Source of the DNA: Candidatus Cacconaster stercorequi
GTDB lineage: Bacteria; Bacillota; Clostridia; Oscillospirales; Oscillospiraceae
Direction of reading: 5' to 3'
NCBI GenBank assembly: GCA_018064925.1
Contig: JAGHUH010000003.1
Location: forward strand, 1 to 64,000
Length of the DNA stretch: 64,000 bases
Positions 58,702 to 64,000 of the stretch are shown in pieces. Within the stretch, counting starts at the first letter, position 1. Each line of letters starts with the position of its first letter. The notes beneath the pieces are model-generated. The model did no database searches. It had not been told where the DNA came from and saw only the letters and a program-made list of their open reading frames with translations. A program made the translations under genes and the position numbers.

Positions 58702-59304
58702 ATGGGAAACCAACACGACCTGCGCGTGCAGCGAACGGAACTATTTATCAAGAATGCTTTTCTGCATTTACTGGATGAACAGCCTTTTGAAAAAATCCAG
58801 GTGAACGACATCGCGCAGCGCGCCATGATCAACCGCAGCACCTTCTATCTGCATTACCGCGACAAATATGATCTGCTGGAGCAGCTCAAGGCGCAGATGA
58901 TTCGGGACATCGGTGGTTTTACCGATTCTCTGACCCGGGAAATGGTGCTGGTCTGCCGGCAGGAGCACACGCCCCTGCCTCATTTACTGGCACTGCTGGC
59001 CTATGTGGAAACGCTTCCGGCGTTTTTTCGTCTGGTGGCTGACAACGACCCATCGTTTTACCGGCGCATCGGACAACCCGCGCAGCAGAAGATTGCAGAG
59101 CTGTTCCCGGAACTGCAGAATGACGCGCTGCCGCCGGCATATGGCGAAGCCATCCTGACATCGCTGCTGCGCTGCGTCATCGAGCAATGGATCAGCCGTG
59201 ATCTCAAAGAGCCTAAGGAGGATGTGGCACTGTTGCTGACGCAGATTATTCTGGCGGATAAGCTGGCACTCTATCAGCTTTCCTCCGCGGCACCTCAGGC
59301 GTAA
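58702..59304 (+). CDS. TetR/AcrR-family regulator
   Basis: A 200-residue repressor. The N-terminal HTH (FEKIQVNDIAQRAMINRSTFYLHYRDKYDLL, in parts) is the TetR_N signature. The C-terminal ligand domain is of TetR_C type with a Cys and several aromatic residues. It is divergent from the CoA activase gene, so control of that gene and of itself is likely; a 15-bp palindrome overlaps the activase -10. ATG 58702 follows GGAAGGAGGG. A hairpin follows the stop. Confidence 0.9.
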   Translation: MGNQHDLRVQRTELFIKNAFLHLLDEQPFEKIQVNDIAQRAMINRSTFYLHYRDKYDLLEQLKAQMIRDIGGFTDSLTREMVLVCRQEHTPLPHLLALLAYVETLPAFFRLVADNDPSFYRRIGQPAQQKIAELFPELQNDALPPAYGEAILTSLLRCVIEQWISRDLKEPKEDVALLLTQIILADKLALYQLSSAAPQA

Positions 59305-59309
59305 AAGAA

Positions 59310-59340
59310 GGCATATCCGCTTTTTTCGGGCGGATATGCC
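59310..59340 (+). terminator. Hairpin after tetR
   Basis: The stem GGCATATCCGC (59310-59320) with 59330-59340 has six T residues in its loop and a weak T-tract after it. Confidence 0.6.
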
Positions 59341-59344
59341 TGGC

Positions 59345-59396
59345 ACTTTAAGTTTTTGTGTTCGTAAAGCAGGAAAACTTTAAGTTTTTATGTTCG
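59345..59396. repeat. Direct repeat pair A (20 bp)
   Basis: ACTTTAAGTTTTTGTGTTCG (59345-59364) recurs at 59377-59396 with one mismatch; the period is 32 bp. It lies at the entry to the AT-rich segment. Confidence 0.85.
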
Positions 59397-59405
59397 CCCC
59401 TAATT

Positions 59406-59487
59406 GAGTAGGCTTTACGATAGATTGTTCGTTTTTATTTTTTACGACCAATTCCGAAACGAGTATGCTTTACGATAGATTGTTCGT
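59406..59487. repeat. Direct repeat pair B (27 bp)
   Basis: A 27-base unit starting GAGTAGGCTTTACGATAG (59406-59432) recurs at 59461-59487 with one mismatch. The inner GCTTTACGA is also present inverted at 59362-59370, within the gap between the two A repeats. They look like insertion ends or protein-binding iterons. No transposase is nearby. Confidence 0.85.
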
Positions 59488-59503
59488 ACTCAAAGACAGC
59501 AAC

Positions 59504-59547
59504 AAAAAATCCGCTCTCTCAAGAATGAGTTGGAGCGGATTTTTTTA
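59504..59547 (-). terminator. Terminator of the DUF4116 operon
   Basis: The stem AAAAAATCCGCTC (59504-59516) with 59533-59545 has A/T tracts on both sides and lies directly after the 24-codon ORF. Confidence 0.85.
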
Positions 59548-59548
59548 T

Positions 59549-59623
59549 TTAGTGGTTCACAAATTTGATGGCTCCAATATTCTGCTTTGTGGTGCCCATG
59601 ATTTGCTTGACAATTCCTGTCAT
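59549..59623 (-). CDS. 24-residue peptide ORF coupled to the DUF4116 gene
   Basis: A short open frame (begins MTGIVKQIMGTTKQN, ends FVNH) starts at ATG 59623 with GAAGGAGG four bases upstream. That site overlaps the DUF4116 stop, so translation is probably coupled. It ends two bases before the operon terminator. No family is known; it is basic and amphipathic. It could be noise, but the ribosome binding site and position argue for translation. Confidence 0.5.
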   Translation of the reverse strand: MTGIVKQIMGTTKQNIGAIKFVNH

Positions 59624-59633
59624 TTTGCCTCCT

Positions 59634-60356
59634 TCAGTCATTTCGCATACAATATTCGATAAATGTTTCTGCTCCTACGTATCGCAACGCTAAAGGATTC
59701 TGTTTGATAGCCTCTGCAATGATGAGTTTGTTATTACGCATTTGCTTGGATGCGTAATACAGTGCCATCCCACTCTGCTGGACAGCACCAAGAACAACCC
59801 CTTTGTCGTTACGGAGTTCCCGAGACGCATATTCCAGCGCCCAACCGTTCCGTTTAACGGCGGCCAGGATGACCTCTTTGTCATTTTGGAGTTCGATGGA
59901 TGCATATTTCAGCGAATGGGTATCCTGCTTTACGGCGGCAAGAACTACATCCTTGTCGTTTTTTAGCTTTGTGGATGCATATTGAAGCGCAAGACCGTTC
60001 TGCTGTACCGCTGTTAAGACAATTTCCTTGTCTTTTTTTAGCATTTCGTGCGCGCACTTCAGTGCTACGCCATAATTCCGCACAGCGGCCAAAACGATTC
60101 TTCTGTCTGCCACAAAACATTTTGGGACATGAGTGAGGGCTCTACCATTTTGCTCTACAGCCGCCAAAACGATTTTTCGATCTTGACGCAATATTTCAGA
60201 CGCGAATTGAATTGCCCTGCCGTTTTTCTTCAAAGCGGCCAAGACAACATCTTTGTCATCACGAAACTCTGCCGGTAGGCTTGATAGAGCGGTTCTGGAT
60301 TTTTTGACAGCATCCAACGCTTCCAGCTTGTCCTTCGACATAGTGTTTAGCGCCAT
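59634..60356 (-). CDS. DUF4116-like repeat protein
   Basis: A 240-residue protein built from eight tandem 25-residue units (for example DKEIVLTAVQQNGLALQYAS; DKEVILAAVKRNGWALEYAS), with a degenerate first unit from about residue 10. Each unit fits a helix-turn-helix repeat, so the protein is probably a short solenoid for protein binding. The DUF4116 family occurs in intracellular bacteria and giant viruses and has no known function. ATG 60356 follows AAAGGAG. It lies in AT-rich, likely transferred DNA between direct repeats and the ABC cassette. Confidence 0.8.
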   Translation of the reverse strand: MALNTMSKDKLEALDAVKKSRTALSSLPAEFRDDKDVVLAALKKNGRAIQFASEILRQDRKIVLAAVEQNGRALTHVPKCFVADRRIVLAAVRNYGVALKCAHEMLKKDKEIVLTAVQQNGLALQYASTKLKNDKDVVLAAVKQDTHSLKYASIELQNDKEVILAAVKRNGWALEYASRELRNDKGVVLGAVQQSGMALYYASKQMRNNKLIIAEAIKQNPLALRYVGAETFIEYCMRND

Positions 60357-60398
60357 ACTCTTCTCCTTTCGTTATTTAATGTGTTTTAGATTTATGTA

Positions 60399-60438
60399 CA
60401 AAAAAAGAGACCTCTTCCTACATAGGAAAAAGTCTCTT
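60399..60438 (-). terminator. Terminator-like hairpin upstream of the DUF4116 gene
   Basis: On the minus strand AAGAGAC..GTCTCTT (60405-60411 with 60432-60438), with an inner TTCCT/AGGAA stem, is followed by seven T residues. It precedes the DUF4116 gene, so it is either an attenuator or the end of a lost leftward gene. Confidence 0.7.
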
Positions 60439-60482
60439 GAATTTATTATATAGTTGGTTGCGTATCTATCACATGATACTTA

Positions 60483-60683
60483 ATGATGATAATGCTATAT
60501 CTTACGTTAATTGTAGTGTACAAGACTATTAAAAGCGGATACAAATTTAGCGCAAACAACAAGTACTATGGTCCGTATTCTCTTTGCGCAACAAATGGAC
60601 GCACAGACTATGTTGTAAAAATGTCAAAGTCGGCAGGAAAGAGCGTATCTTCTATTGTAAAAGTTGACTGGATGATTGATTAG
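60483..60683 (+). CDS. Small peptide-like ORF, 66 residues
   Basis: An open frame of 66 codons with a short hydrophobic start (MLYLTLIVVY) and a polar, Tyr/Ser/Asn-rich tail (SGYKFSANNKYYGPY; GRTDYVVKMSKSAGKS). No good ribosome binding site is visible, and no signal peptidase site is clear, so it may be the 3' part of a secreted-peptide gene that lost its start. It lies directly before a perfect 21-bp hairpin and two ABC ATPase-membrane fusion genes. A bacteriocin-like or signal-peptide role is a guess from position only. Confidence 0.45.
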   Translation: MMIMLYLTLIVVYKTIKSGYKFSANNKYYGPYSLCATNGRTDYVVKMSKSAGKSVSSIVKVDWMID

Positions 60684-60688
60684 TTAAC

Positions 60689-60738
60689 AAATATTTGCTA
60701 TGCTGGAACATATCAAAGTTCCAGCATAGCAAATATTT
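60689..60738 (+). terminator. Perfect 21-bp hairpin between the small ORF and the ABC gene
   Basis: Bases 60689-60709 are exactly complementary to 60718-60738, with an 8-base loop. There is little T-tract. Such hairpins between a peptide gene and its transporter genes cause strong 5' expression with partial read-through. Confidence 0.85.
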
Positions 60739-60752
60739 AGTTGGTGAACATT

Positions 60753-62474
60753 ATGATTATTACCATTCCGGATATTGTTGCGGGCAAAAAGCATTTAATT
60801 GACAAGTGTCAGATTAACATTCAAAAATATGCATTGACTTCTATTTGTGGGGAAAATGGCAGTGGTAAAACAATGCTGTTAAGCTGCCTGTTCTCTGAAA
60901 GCGTAAAAAATAACATTTCCGCATGTATGATGGATCAGAGTAGCGAGTTGCAGTTAAACAGATGCACAGTATTAGAAAACATTGCTTTATCAGAGGAAAG
61001 AGAGCATTGTGAAAAAGCGTATAAGCTGTTGGAAGAATACGGCGTAGACGAATTAGCGTCACACAAAATTAACGAACTAAGCGGTGGCGAAAAAAGATTG
61101 ATTTGCCTTCTCCGTTGTATATATAACGAACCAGATATTCTCTTTTTGGATGAGCCAACTAATGATTTAGATTACATTTCCGTTGAAAAACTTATTAAAA
61201 TTTTGAATAAAATTTGCAAGAAATGTACAGTAATTGCGGTTACTCACGATGATAGAATTACTTCTATATCTTCACAAATTTATCGGATAAACTATCAGCG
61301 CATTATTAATGAAAAAAATGTGGGAGTCGATAAAAATGCCCAAACATCATCATATTTGGGGCAGAGTAAAGATCCTTGTGCCCACAAAATATCTTTGAGT
61401 CTATTACGCAAAGCACTAAACTCGGTCAATGTTCTAAGATTACTGTTTTTCTTGTTTTCTGCCTGCATGATATATTTTTCAATTTTACACCAACAGGAAA
61501 TACCGAATTTAGGACTTGATTCAATAGCTCCTGGGGAAGTAGATATATTTATTCCTCTATCAGATTATGCGTGCGGAATGCTAACAGAAGGGGCAGTTCC
61601 CATTCGAGCGTTAACCTGTTTTAATGACAATGCGAAGATTACAGAAAAAGCAAGAATATACAAGGAACTCGTTTCTCAGTTGACCCAAATGCCAATCAAC
61701 TACGGGCTAAAAATGAAAGAAGATTTACGATGGATTCAGTTCAAAAATGAGTACTATGATGTAGAAAACCGAACATTTATCTATCCATTAGAGCTGTATG
61801 CAGAAGAATTCCAACTCGATAGCCCACCCGACACATCGAAGTATTTTGATGTGTTTTCCGAAATCGTGAGCGAGGGAGCAGAGCCACTCGATATTACACT
61901 ATATAATTCGTTGTTGAACAACCGGAAGCAAGAGCTTGAAAACAATCATACTGAATGCACATGGCTGACAATTTCGCTTCAAGGAACTGACTTCTACACT
62001 TTTATAAGCTCTGATAGTGTATCAGCCATCATGGACGGCAATTATTGCATCCGGTCCGCCGAAACAATTGAGTTTACAAAGCAAGTGAATACATTTATTG
62101 TGCTGGAGCGAGTTTTAAAGAGAGCAATTGTGGCAGCCCTTATCTATCTTGCACTTGCTTTTTTTGCCACGTTACTACTTTGTGTAGCAAATCGATCCGC
62201 AATAAAAGTGTTCTGCAATTGCGGTGCGCAGAAGAAAGATGTTGCAAGAATTGTATCAAAGAATATTGCAGACGGACAATTCTGCCTCATTTGCGGTATT
62301 GGAGCCATCGCGGTTATGGTTATTTGGCTCATAATAAGTAAGGATACGAATACAATTAGTGCTTATATTGAAACTATAACTTATATTATGGTAGGAGCTT
62401 TGTCCGCGAATATAAGAAAAAGAACAGCTATGGTGTCGACAAACAATATCTACGACTGGAGGAAACGCAGGTGA
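60753..62474 (+). CDS. ABC ATPase fused to MacB-like membrane module (first of pair)
   Basis: A 573-residue fusion. An ABC cassette has Walker A GENGSGKT (33-40), signature LSGGEKR (109-115), Walker B ILFLDE (129-134) and H-loop AVTHDD (162-167). Then TM1 at about 227-246, an extracellular region of about 210 residues, and TM2-4 at about 458-478, 511-528 and 540-553. That is the layout of type VII (MacB-like) half-transporters, but with no close match to MacB. ATG 60753 has GGTGA five bases upstream; TTG 60741 and GTG 60744 are alternatives. Its stop overlaps the next gene's GTG by 4 bp. It is AT-rich. Confidence 0.78.
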   Translation: MIITIPDIVAGKKHLIDKCQINIQKYALTSICGENGSGKTMLLSCLFSESVKNNISACMMDQSSELQLNRCTVLENIALSEEREHCEKAYKLLEEYGVDELASHKINELSGGEKRLICLLRCIYNEPDILFLDEPTNDLDYISVEKLIKILNKICKKCTVIAVTHDDRITSISSQIYRINYQRIINEKNVGVDKNAQTSSYLGQSKDPCAHKISLSLLRKALNSVNVLRLLFFLFSACMIYFSILHQQEIPNLGLDSIAPGEVDIFIPLSDYACGMLTEGAVPIRALTCFNDNAKITEKARIYKELVSQLTQMPINYGLKMKEDLRWIQFKNEYYDVENRTFIYPLELYAEEFQLDSPPDTSKYFDVFSEIVSEGAEPLDITLYNSLLNNRKQELENNHTECTWLTISLQGTDFYTFISSDSVSAIMDGNYCIRSAETIEFTKQVNTFIVLERVLKRAIVAALIYLALAFFATLLLCVANRSAIKVFCNCGAQKKDVARIVSKNIADGQFCLICGIGAIAVMVIWLIISKDTNTISAYIETITYIMVGALSANIRKRTAMVSTNNIYDWRKRR

Positions 62475-64000
62475 AATTTGAATCCCTACACATAAAGAAC
62501 AAATATCTTCACATGGAATTGCAGACAGTCGATTTTAGCTATACGGGCATCTATTTAATCACAGGTCCTAACGGCTCAGGAAAAAGCACTATTCTCAAGG
62601 AAATTGTATTCGGGAATAACACTCCAAAATTTCCGACAGAAGATCAGTATAATGCATATAACCATAATAGAGGGGCATTGATAAGCTATGTGCCTCAAAA
62701 AGTTTCTGTTCCGGATGTCACCGTAGATGAATACATAAGAAAAGACAACCCAATTGTACGACGGGATGAACTCGTAAACCTTTTGGATAAATTTGGGCTG
62801 CCTGAATTAGATATGGGTTTAAAGATTAGGGTAATGAGCGGAGGCGAAATCGTAAAACTTTCTATAATTTCCGCCTTGCTTAAAAAGACTCCGTATTTGG
62901 TGTTGGATGAGCCGACAAATAATTTGGACGACAGATCGACAGCGTCGCTGATGCATGAGATTGAAAAGTATGCTGAAGATCGTACTGTACTATTAGTTTC
63001 TCACGACCCCAGAGTGATAAAGCACGACGCATACCAGGTTTTTATCACACAAGATGGAATCTCACAAGAATATTCAAAGGGAATACAGAACACGACCGCT
63101 CCGGCGCAACAGCCTAAGATATCCGGTCTGAAATTAGCTACACGGCTTTTGAAGAAAAACCACAACATTGTATGCCTGGCAGCTTTCGTGTGTGTATTAG
63201 TAGCTGCACTATTATTTAATCTGAACGAATTTAGCCGTAAATACTCTACAGATATCCCACCAAAACAGAATTCCATCTTGGTATATAACGCAGATTTCAC
63301 ATACCCGAACTTAAACGAATATTATGTAAAATCGGCTCGATTGGAAATAGACCGTTCAAAATACGAACGGCGTCTTAGTTATGATGATATTCCGCAATGC
63401 GCTCAAGAGAACGGAATAAATATGTTTTATGTTTTGCGCGAAGACAAGACATCGGCCTTTTGTGATAATGCGTTTTCTGAATCTGCAGAAGATCCAGAGC
63501 CGGCTTCCATCCCGAGCGTTATTGCCGAAAACTATTTAAGTCAATGTGGACTTTCTGATGTTTTTTCGCTGAAGAAGGGGAGATATCCCGCTGACAATAC
63601 ACACGAAATCGCCCTTTGCGAAAAACGCCTATCAGAGCAATTTCGCATAGAAAATAGTGAAACAAGTGCCATCGGGGAAAAGTTGGAAGTCGATGGGATA
63701 AAGTATACTATCGTCGGAATTACATCATTTGATGTAATTTGGGTATCTTACCATGGCAACGAAAACAGCTTGTTTTATTGCTACGATGTAACGGACTATG
63801 ACTCGTTCGCCGACAACGCAATTTCTTATCAAATAGGCGCTGATTACACTTATTGTTATGAACCGTCAGTTGCAGTTATTACTACAAAACCACAGCAAGA
63901 AAAATCAGTCCTTAACTCGATGATGTCGAATTATCCGGCCAATAATTACTATTCTTACGAATACAATCAAGGATGGACATTGGCATACAATTGGGCATTT
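62471..64000 (+). CDS. ABC ATPase fused to MacB-like membrane module (second of pair, partial)
   Basis: Open from GTG 62471 to the window edge, 510 codons with no stop. The ABC cassette has Walker A GPNGSGKST (32-40), Q-loop region VPQKVSV, signature MSGGEIVKL (122-130), Walker B YLVLDE (142-147) and H-loop LVSHD (175-179). TM1 is at about 232-250. A long extracellular region follows with MacB-core-like segments (FSLKKGRYPADNTHEIAL; IGEKLEVDGIKYTIVGI). The remaining membrane helices should lie beyond the edge. It overlaps the previous gene by 4 bp and probably forms a heterodimer with it. Confidence 0.78.
   Translation, partial: MKFESLHIKNKYLHMELQTVDFSYTGIYLITGPNGSGKSTILKEIVFGNNTPKFPTEDQYNAYNHNRGALISYVPQKVSVPDVTVDEYIRKDNPIVRRDELVNLLDKFGLPELDMGLKIRVMSGGEIVKLSIISALLKKTPYLVLDEPTNNLDDRSTASLMHEIEKYAEDRTVLLVSHDPRVIKHDAYQVFITQDGISQEYSKGIQNTTAPAQQPKISGLKLATRLLKKNHNIVCLAAFVCVLVAALLFNLNEFSRKYSTDIPPKQNSILVYNADFTYPNLNEYYVKSARLEIDRSKYERRLSYDDIPQCAQENGINMFYVLREDKTSAFCDNAFSESAEDPEPASIPSVIAENYLSQCGLSDVFSLKKGRYPADNTHEIALCEKRLSEQFRIENSETSAIGEKLEVDGIKYTIVGITSFDVIWVSYHGNENSLFYCYDVTDYDSFADNAISYQIGADYTYCYEPSVAVITTKPQQEKSVLNSMMSNYPANNYYSYEYNQGWTLAYNWAF

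Follow-up and report, generated by a model that had tools for sequence, protein, structure and literature searches.

What is made by the set of AT-rich genes at the right-hand end of a contig of Candidatus Cacconaster stercorequi, and does the set still make it there? The DNA analysed (the window) is the first 64,000 nucleotides of a contig that measures 64,873 bases, from an assembly that is 88% complete and consists of 46 contigs. The cassette in question contains, in order, a 66-codon open reading frame (ORF), a perfect 21-bp inverted repeat, two genes for ATP-binding cassette (ABC) fusion proteins, here called A and B, and an M50 protease gene. The reading preferred here, for which confidence is about evenly balanced, is that this four-gene cassette, rare and sporadic in Gram-positive bacteria, makes a bacteriocin-like secreted protein, and that the window copy is a truncated member. 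It draws on the shared gene order, the linked precursors and their N-terminal helices, the MacB_PCD match in B, the HExxH motif of the protease, a low-confidence structure model of the Alkalibaculum precursor, the quorum-type genes beside the Alkalibaculum cassette, the low GC content and rarity of the set, and the precedent of EpeP, the M50 protease of an epipeptide locus. The features, with transmembrane segments abbreviated as TM, are as follows.

60483..60683, plus strand: small ORF of 66 amino acids, corresponding to roughly the C-terminal 40% of the precursor of a secreted protein (BLASTP, shuffle tests).
60689..60738, plus strand: perfect 21-bp inverted repeat with an 8-nt loop (arms 60689-60709 and 60718-60738).
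60741..62474, plus strand: fusion A, with ABC ATPase, TM1, extracellular domain and C-terminal TM cluster.
62471..64000 in the window, plus strand: fusion B, with ABC ATPase, TM1, MacB_PCD-like domain and TM2-4.
64349-64792 of the contig, beyond the window, plus strand: M50 protease of 147 amino acids with the motif HELAH (Peptidase_M50, E-value 6.4e-11).

A preliminary description of the window had reported an AT-rich stretch in which two ABC fusions are preceded by a small ORF and a perfect 21-bp hairpin, all of which are present in the sequence. It had also proposed a check of the DNA to the right of base 64000, and this showed that B is completed at 64327 and followed by the M50 gene. Its remark that no usual partner was seen with the fusions in the visible part is not supported for the locus as a whole, as the protease gene lies next to B on the same contig.

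The order of small protein, A, B and M50 recurs in Listeria monocytogenes, in Alkalibaculum sporogenes M08DMB (G907) and in a genome of another class of the phylum (G457). A search for this order in other genomes, also proposed earlier, thus returned three further loci, in distantly related Gram-positive bacteria, and the order was found at all four loci that have a full-length B. In Listeria, a small-protein ORF, A (553 amino acids), B (591 amino acids) and M50 (134 amino acids) are flanked by a glycosidase gene on one side and, on the other, by an internalin gene with the annotation InlC2. The B proteins of the four loci were 24-32% identical over most of their length. The A proteins were 25-27% identical over most of their length in the pairs without Listeria, and the BLAST alignments with the Listeria A were confined to the ATPase part, with 34-40% identity.

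The small proteins were longer elsewhere than in the window, with 138 amino acids in Alkalibaculum, 164 in G457, and 147 or 157 in the intact Listeria protein, depending on the start codon. In the Listeria record L005, the ORF is interrupted and was handled as two pieces. Hydropathy indicated an N-terminal membrane segment in all three longer precursors, and the genes in Listeria, Alkalibaculum and G457 possessed a strong Shine-Dalgarno sequence. The first gene thereby encodes, at these loci, a small protein with an N-terminal membrane helix and an outer part that is probably beta-rich. The precursor parts after the helix were compared by shuffle tests with 2000 shuffles each, and the figures given here are for local alignment with a gap penalty of -8. 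None of the 2000 shuffles reached the score of the real alignment for window and Listeria, window and Alkalibaculum, or Listeria and G457, and in three other alignment settings these three pairs gave 0 or 1 of 2000. Of 99 control segments, the best scored 32, and the two matches of the window ORF scored 70 and 67.

In BLASTP, the window ORF matched the C-terminal piece from Listeria with an E-value of 5e-7. It corresponds to only the final 54 or so residues of the family, its first 9 to 12 residues falling outside the homologous part. The preliminary description would have lost ground if the small ORF had occurred in this genome alone; homologues are instead encoded in the same place, upstream of the ABC pair, at the other loci. 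Its view that the 66-residue ORF is a functional gene for the peptide was not supported. No TM segment was predicted in the ORF by hydropathy, no Shine-Dalgarno sequence precedes its ATG, unlike the genes at the other three loci, and an in-frame TGA stands three codons 5' of that ATG. No trace of the missing N-terminal part was obtained in six frames over 59301-60520 (18 tests, z-scores from -1.6 to 1.2), and its survival in another upstream frame was rejected. A signal peptide within the ORF was likewise rejected, given the absent TM segment and the position of the first 9-12 residues outside the homology. In addition, a consensus scan of 60300-60800, which is weak evidence, gave no promoter-like site on the plus strand. 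The window ORF is probably a 5'-truncated relic of a precursor gene, because its match is confined to the C-terminal part of the family and it has neither a helix, nor a Shine-Dalgarno sequence, nor an N-terminal trace upstream.

Fusion A contains 577 amino acids when read from the TTG; the ATG at 60753, with GGTGA upstream, is the preferred start. Fusion B continues beyond the window to contig position 64327 (618 amino acids). The two genes overlap by 4 bp, and each encodes an ABC ATPase, TM1 and an outer domain, as had been described. Both proteins carry complete motifs, read off the sequence, which we take to be Walker A, the signature (SGGE), Walker B and the H-loop. The outer domain is about 210 residues in A and about 260 in B. 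Hydropathy gave four segments in B at all four loci; for A, it gave four in Listeria and Alkalibaculum, five in G457 (one within the ATPase part) and just three above the threshold in the window. The earlier assignment of TM2-4 to the first fusion holds as regards a C-terminal TM cluster, and its restriction to that fusion does not, since B too has four segments.

The outer and TM part of B was matched by MacB_PCD in 6 of 6 family members at an E-value of 1 or below, the best being 1e-6. The first member scored 26.9 against a cut-off of 27, and the whole B of the window gave a weak 16.8 (E-value 0.0084). B also shows the type VII topology of TM1, a large outer domain and TM2-4. Because of this match and this topology, its assignment as a type VII pump is well supported at the level of sequence. 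For the outer domain of A, MacB_PCD was not among the best 25 of 36 families. The ATPases of both fusions scored highest with ABC-F-like NCBIfam models, below every cut-off, among the best 25 of 196 and 25 of 194 models. A and B co-occur at all four loci with a full-length B, which is consistent with a heterodimer.

The M50 proteins of all four loci possess HExxH, and they are membrane proteins with a distal Asp, as in M50 site-2 proteases. By eye, the Asp of the C-terminal block is present in all four, one position off in G457. The Pfam M50 cut-off was passed by the window, G457 and Alkalibaculum proteins and not by that of Listeria (12.6 against 27.2). In the Alkalibaculum frame, none of the common start codons precedes the motif.

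According to the preferred reading, the precursor would be inserted in the membrane by its N-terminal helix, and the M50 site-2-type protease would cut that helix or its remnant. Two unlike type VII (MacB-like) half-transporters, each with an N-terminal ATPase, probably pair. Powered by ATP inside the cell, the pair would move its outer domains, and so either draw the product out of the membrane or shield the producer from it; the task of the pair could be export and release or self-protection. We infer an antibacterial activity of the product from the genes, and likewise the pairing of A with B, the cleavage of the precursor, and extraction or immunity. Because the first gene is 5'-truncated, the cassette in this genome is probably silent as a producer and would be at most a transporter and protease (immunity-like) remnant.

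Several results weigh against this reading. In the shuffle tests, 41 of 2000 shuffles reached the score for Listeria and Alkalibaculum, 85 for window and G457, and 99 for Alkalibaculum and G457; as direct similarity is weak or absent for these three of the six pairs, the four precursors are linked in a chain and not pairwise throughout, as judged from these alignments. BLASTP of the window ORF with the Alkalibaculum precursor gave no match, and no bacteriocin model of Pfam or NCBIfam matched any small protein. The structure models are weak. The AlphaFold2 model of the Alkalibaculum precursor showed a helix at residues 7-29 and then strands, at low confidence (predicted local distance difference test score, pLDDT, 60; two rows); a search of the PDB with it gave no match at an E-value of 0.001 or below, and the weak ones were mostly beta-sandwich proteins. 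The model of fusion B was poor (pLDDT 45). An hhalign comparison of the outer domains of A and B gave a probability of 10.7 over 44 columns near TM2 only, so that A has the topology of B while homology of their outer domains is not established by these profiles. The ORF list of the Listeria locus contained no agr set. Killing, cleavage and transport are all deduced from the genes.

The truncated precursor gene bears directly on an alternative that we regard as rather unlikely, namely immunity or detoxification. A and B would act like BceAB or MacB on a peptide from outside, assisted by the M50 protease, the small protein being the cognate toxin and the window an orphan immunity set. The window does retain A, B and M50 beside a truncated precursor gene. 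Gram-positive pumps of the MacB family are described as defending against lantibiotics, bacitracin or SDP toxin, and as thought not to move substrates across the cytoplasmic membrane (PMC5985334); a precedent for such an orphan set is reported in pneumococci, where scbBC occurs without scbA in 157 of 571 genomes (PMC11796350). However, the protease has no clear role in this scheme, the ORF lists around the window copy showed no sensor kinase, and the truncation may be mere decay of the whole set.

Signalling, in which a small fragment cut from the precursor by the M50 protease would be exported by the ABC pair as a pheromone, is improbable. Upstream of the Alkalibaculum cassette stand genes for AgrB, a GHKL kinase and a LytTR regulator, as in quorum-regulated peptide loci; these adjoining agr-type genes speak for signalling as well as for the preferred reading. 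So does the report that site-2 proteases process signal-peptide pheromones in Gram-positive bacteria (PMC10202637). However, the similarity between the precursors is located in the outer part after the helix, and no recurring receptor gene was noticed in the stretches read.

A lactococcin 972-type operon with fused ABC parts, to which the preliminary description had pointed, is very improbable: there is again a small secreted, probably beta-rich protein with ABC and membrane parts, and TIGR03608 (L_ocin_972) was the second-best NCBIfam model for the ATPase of A among the best 25 models, but at 82.3 bits for A and 55.9 for B the ATPases fall far below its cut-off of 254.85 and fail by profile, and no lactococcin 972 precursor model of Pfam or NCBIfam matched the window ORF, either Listeria piece, or the Alkalibaculum or G457 protein at an E-value of 1 or below.

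Compared with known systems, the preferred four-gene cassette shares single features with several. It resembles MacB and the type VII (ABC3) mechanotransmission transporters, including BceAB, in TM1, outer domain and TM2-4, and MacB itself in the ATPase fused at the N-terminus and in the MacB_PCD match of all six B outer domains. It differs from them in having two unlike fused halves in one operon, with no adaptor gene noticed, and in ATPases closest to ABC-F-like models, below every cut-off shown. The AS-48 accessory transporter (AS-48EFGH) consists of separate subunits plus an adaptor and goes with another precursor; these are points of difference. What it shares with the cassette is that a MacB-like subunit is encoded at a bacteriocin locus of Gram-positive bacteria (PMC5985334). 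Lactococcin 972-type operons, such as streptococcin B scbABC, also combine a small secreted protein with an ABC protein and a membrane partner, and the family product is reported as a beta-sandwich (PMC11796350); in the cassette, ATPase and membrane parts are fused twice and an M50 protease is added.

The epipeptide loci (epeXEPAB, yydFGHIJ) likewise have an M50 protease and ABC components. The epipeptide models were not reached (LiaK/YydH 16.2 bits against a cut-off of 225, YydI 52 against 240), and the cassette precursor is about three times the size of EpeX, which has about 50 amino acids. The ORF lists of the four loci, looked over by eye with no scan of each gene, showed no radical SAM gene. 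The M50 protease EpeP is reported to serve an antimicrobial epipeptide (PMC10885120). None of the curated models shown covers the four-gene set, and no description of it was found in literature titles and abstract openings.

The cassette was rare in the collections searched. In four large searches, matches were obtained in at least 2 of 300 genomes of the family, at least 2 of 394 of the order, at least 4 of 341 of the class and at least 2 of 398 of the phylum; these are lower bounds, as 3 or 4 candidates were scored per genome, and the draws overlap. In the order of Alkalibaculum, 1 of 67 genomes matched, and around G457 the numbers were 1 of 13 in its class and 1 of 6 in its family. The counts include the own genome where it was searched and refer to the groups named, with no search across all Bacilli among them. 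Besides the window, only G457 and Alkalibaculum gave full-length relatives of B in these genome searches. When the collection of named genomes was scanned with a pattern, 60 stretches came up, two of which were relatives (again G907, and G861). G861 and G026 have a B-type outer and TM part, and no A, M50 or precursor was found around these parts in the 12.0 and 3.7 kb read. Such B-type outer and TM proteins, which have no ATPase part and no A, M50 or precursor in the stretches read (L004:1295-2236, minus strand, and L015:5854-7041), are relics or stand-alone proteins. G788 was dropped as a relative, its match being confined to the ATPase part of an exporter, as was G1293, with an ATPase match of 165 columns only.

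A protein search of the plasmid collection returned the Listeria record alone, which is named a plasmid and, at 2.9 Mb, was taken as chromosome; Alkalibaculum A, B and precursor and the window ORF had no match there, and scans of viral contigs gave no relative. Two GenBank entries filed as Listeria phage, OR846786 and OR848104, match B. In OR846786, B is split into two ORFs and the cassette lies between the same glycosidase and internalin genes; because of these chromosomal flanks, the entry looks like host DNA filed as phage. In Alkalibaculum (L014:1018-3627, minus strand) and G457 (L008:1171-4517, minus strand), the M50 gene is followed by another small ORF, whose start looks signal-like by eye. 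Next to it are an ABC ATPase, identified by Pfam, and ORFs of membrane-like character; two of the latter were scanned and gave no Pfam match. This downstream set is possibly a second bacteriocin-like module.

The hairpin between the small ORF and fusion A is specific to the window copy. Its RNA fold reached -34.7 kcal/mol with a z-score of -8, and none of 200 shuffles was as good. The base of the folded stem includes the GGTGA ahead of fusion A, so a local effect on this gene is possible. No inverted repeat of at least 10 bp, with arms within 60 bases, was found from the small-protein gene to A at the other three loci, and a wider scan at Listeria gave merely three chance-like pairs of 10-11 bp. 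Because of this absence, a conserved attenuator was rejected, and the view of the hairpin as an element of the system was not supported.

The GC content was 0.37-0.41 across the four kilobases 60001-64000, and at least 0.53 in 51 of the 60 preceding kilobases (range 0.448-0.619). The GC content at third codon positions was 0.35-0.39 in the four cassette ORFs, compared with 0.74 in a CoA-activase gene. Horizontal transfer would fit, because the cassette is both low in GC and rare. Upstream, a gene at 59637-60356 (minus strand) encodes a protein built largely of DUF4116 repeats (8 stretches, E-value 7.9e-130, Pfam), and a further feature lies ahead of it.

60405..60438, minus strand: terminator-like hairpin upstream of the DUF4116 gene (1 found; shuffle mean 0.2).

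It is possibly the scar of a lost neighbour. The stretch 59341-59545 is about 80% identical to one on contig C16 that lies directly 3' of a gene for an ISL3-type transposase, and is a probable insertion-element scar by sequence. A minus-strand terminator with no visible gene to serve, together with this ISL3-like flank, suggests that the region upstream of the cassette was rearranged. At the other side, the contig end (C35:64773-64872) is an exact 100-bp repeat of C12:1-100 that begins in the final codons of the M50 gene; close to the C12 copy are genes for a C39-peptidase ABC exporter and an HlyD-type protein. The repeat may be the reason why the contig breaks here and why the M50 protein has an odd C-terminal tail.

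The window copy itself is of little weight, because its precursor gene is truncated. Taken further, the cassette may represent a new class of secreted antibacterial protein in Gram-positive bacteria, a proposal we make tentatively and with somewhat more doubt than confidence: a membrane-anchored beta-domain, which a site-2 protease of its own would free and an obligate asymmetric pair of MacB-type ATPase fusions would pull off the membrane from outside. If this is right, it would add a four-gene cassette in which a precursor is accompanied by its own membrane protease and by an asymmetric mechanotransmission pump encoded by two genes. In such a pair, the halves could be altered singly, so that the one that senses may be told from the one that drives, which the MacB homodimer does not permit.

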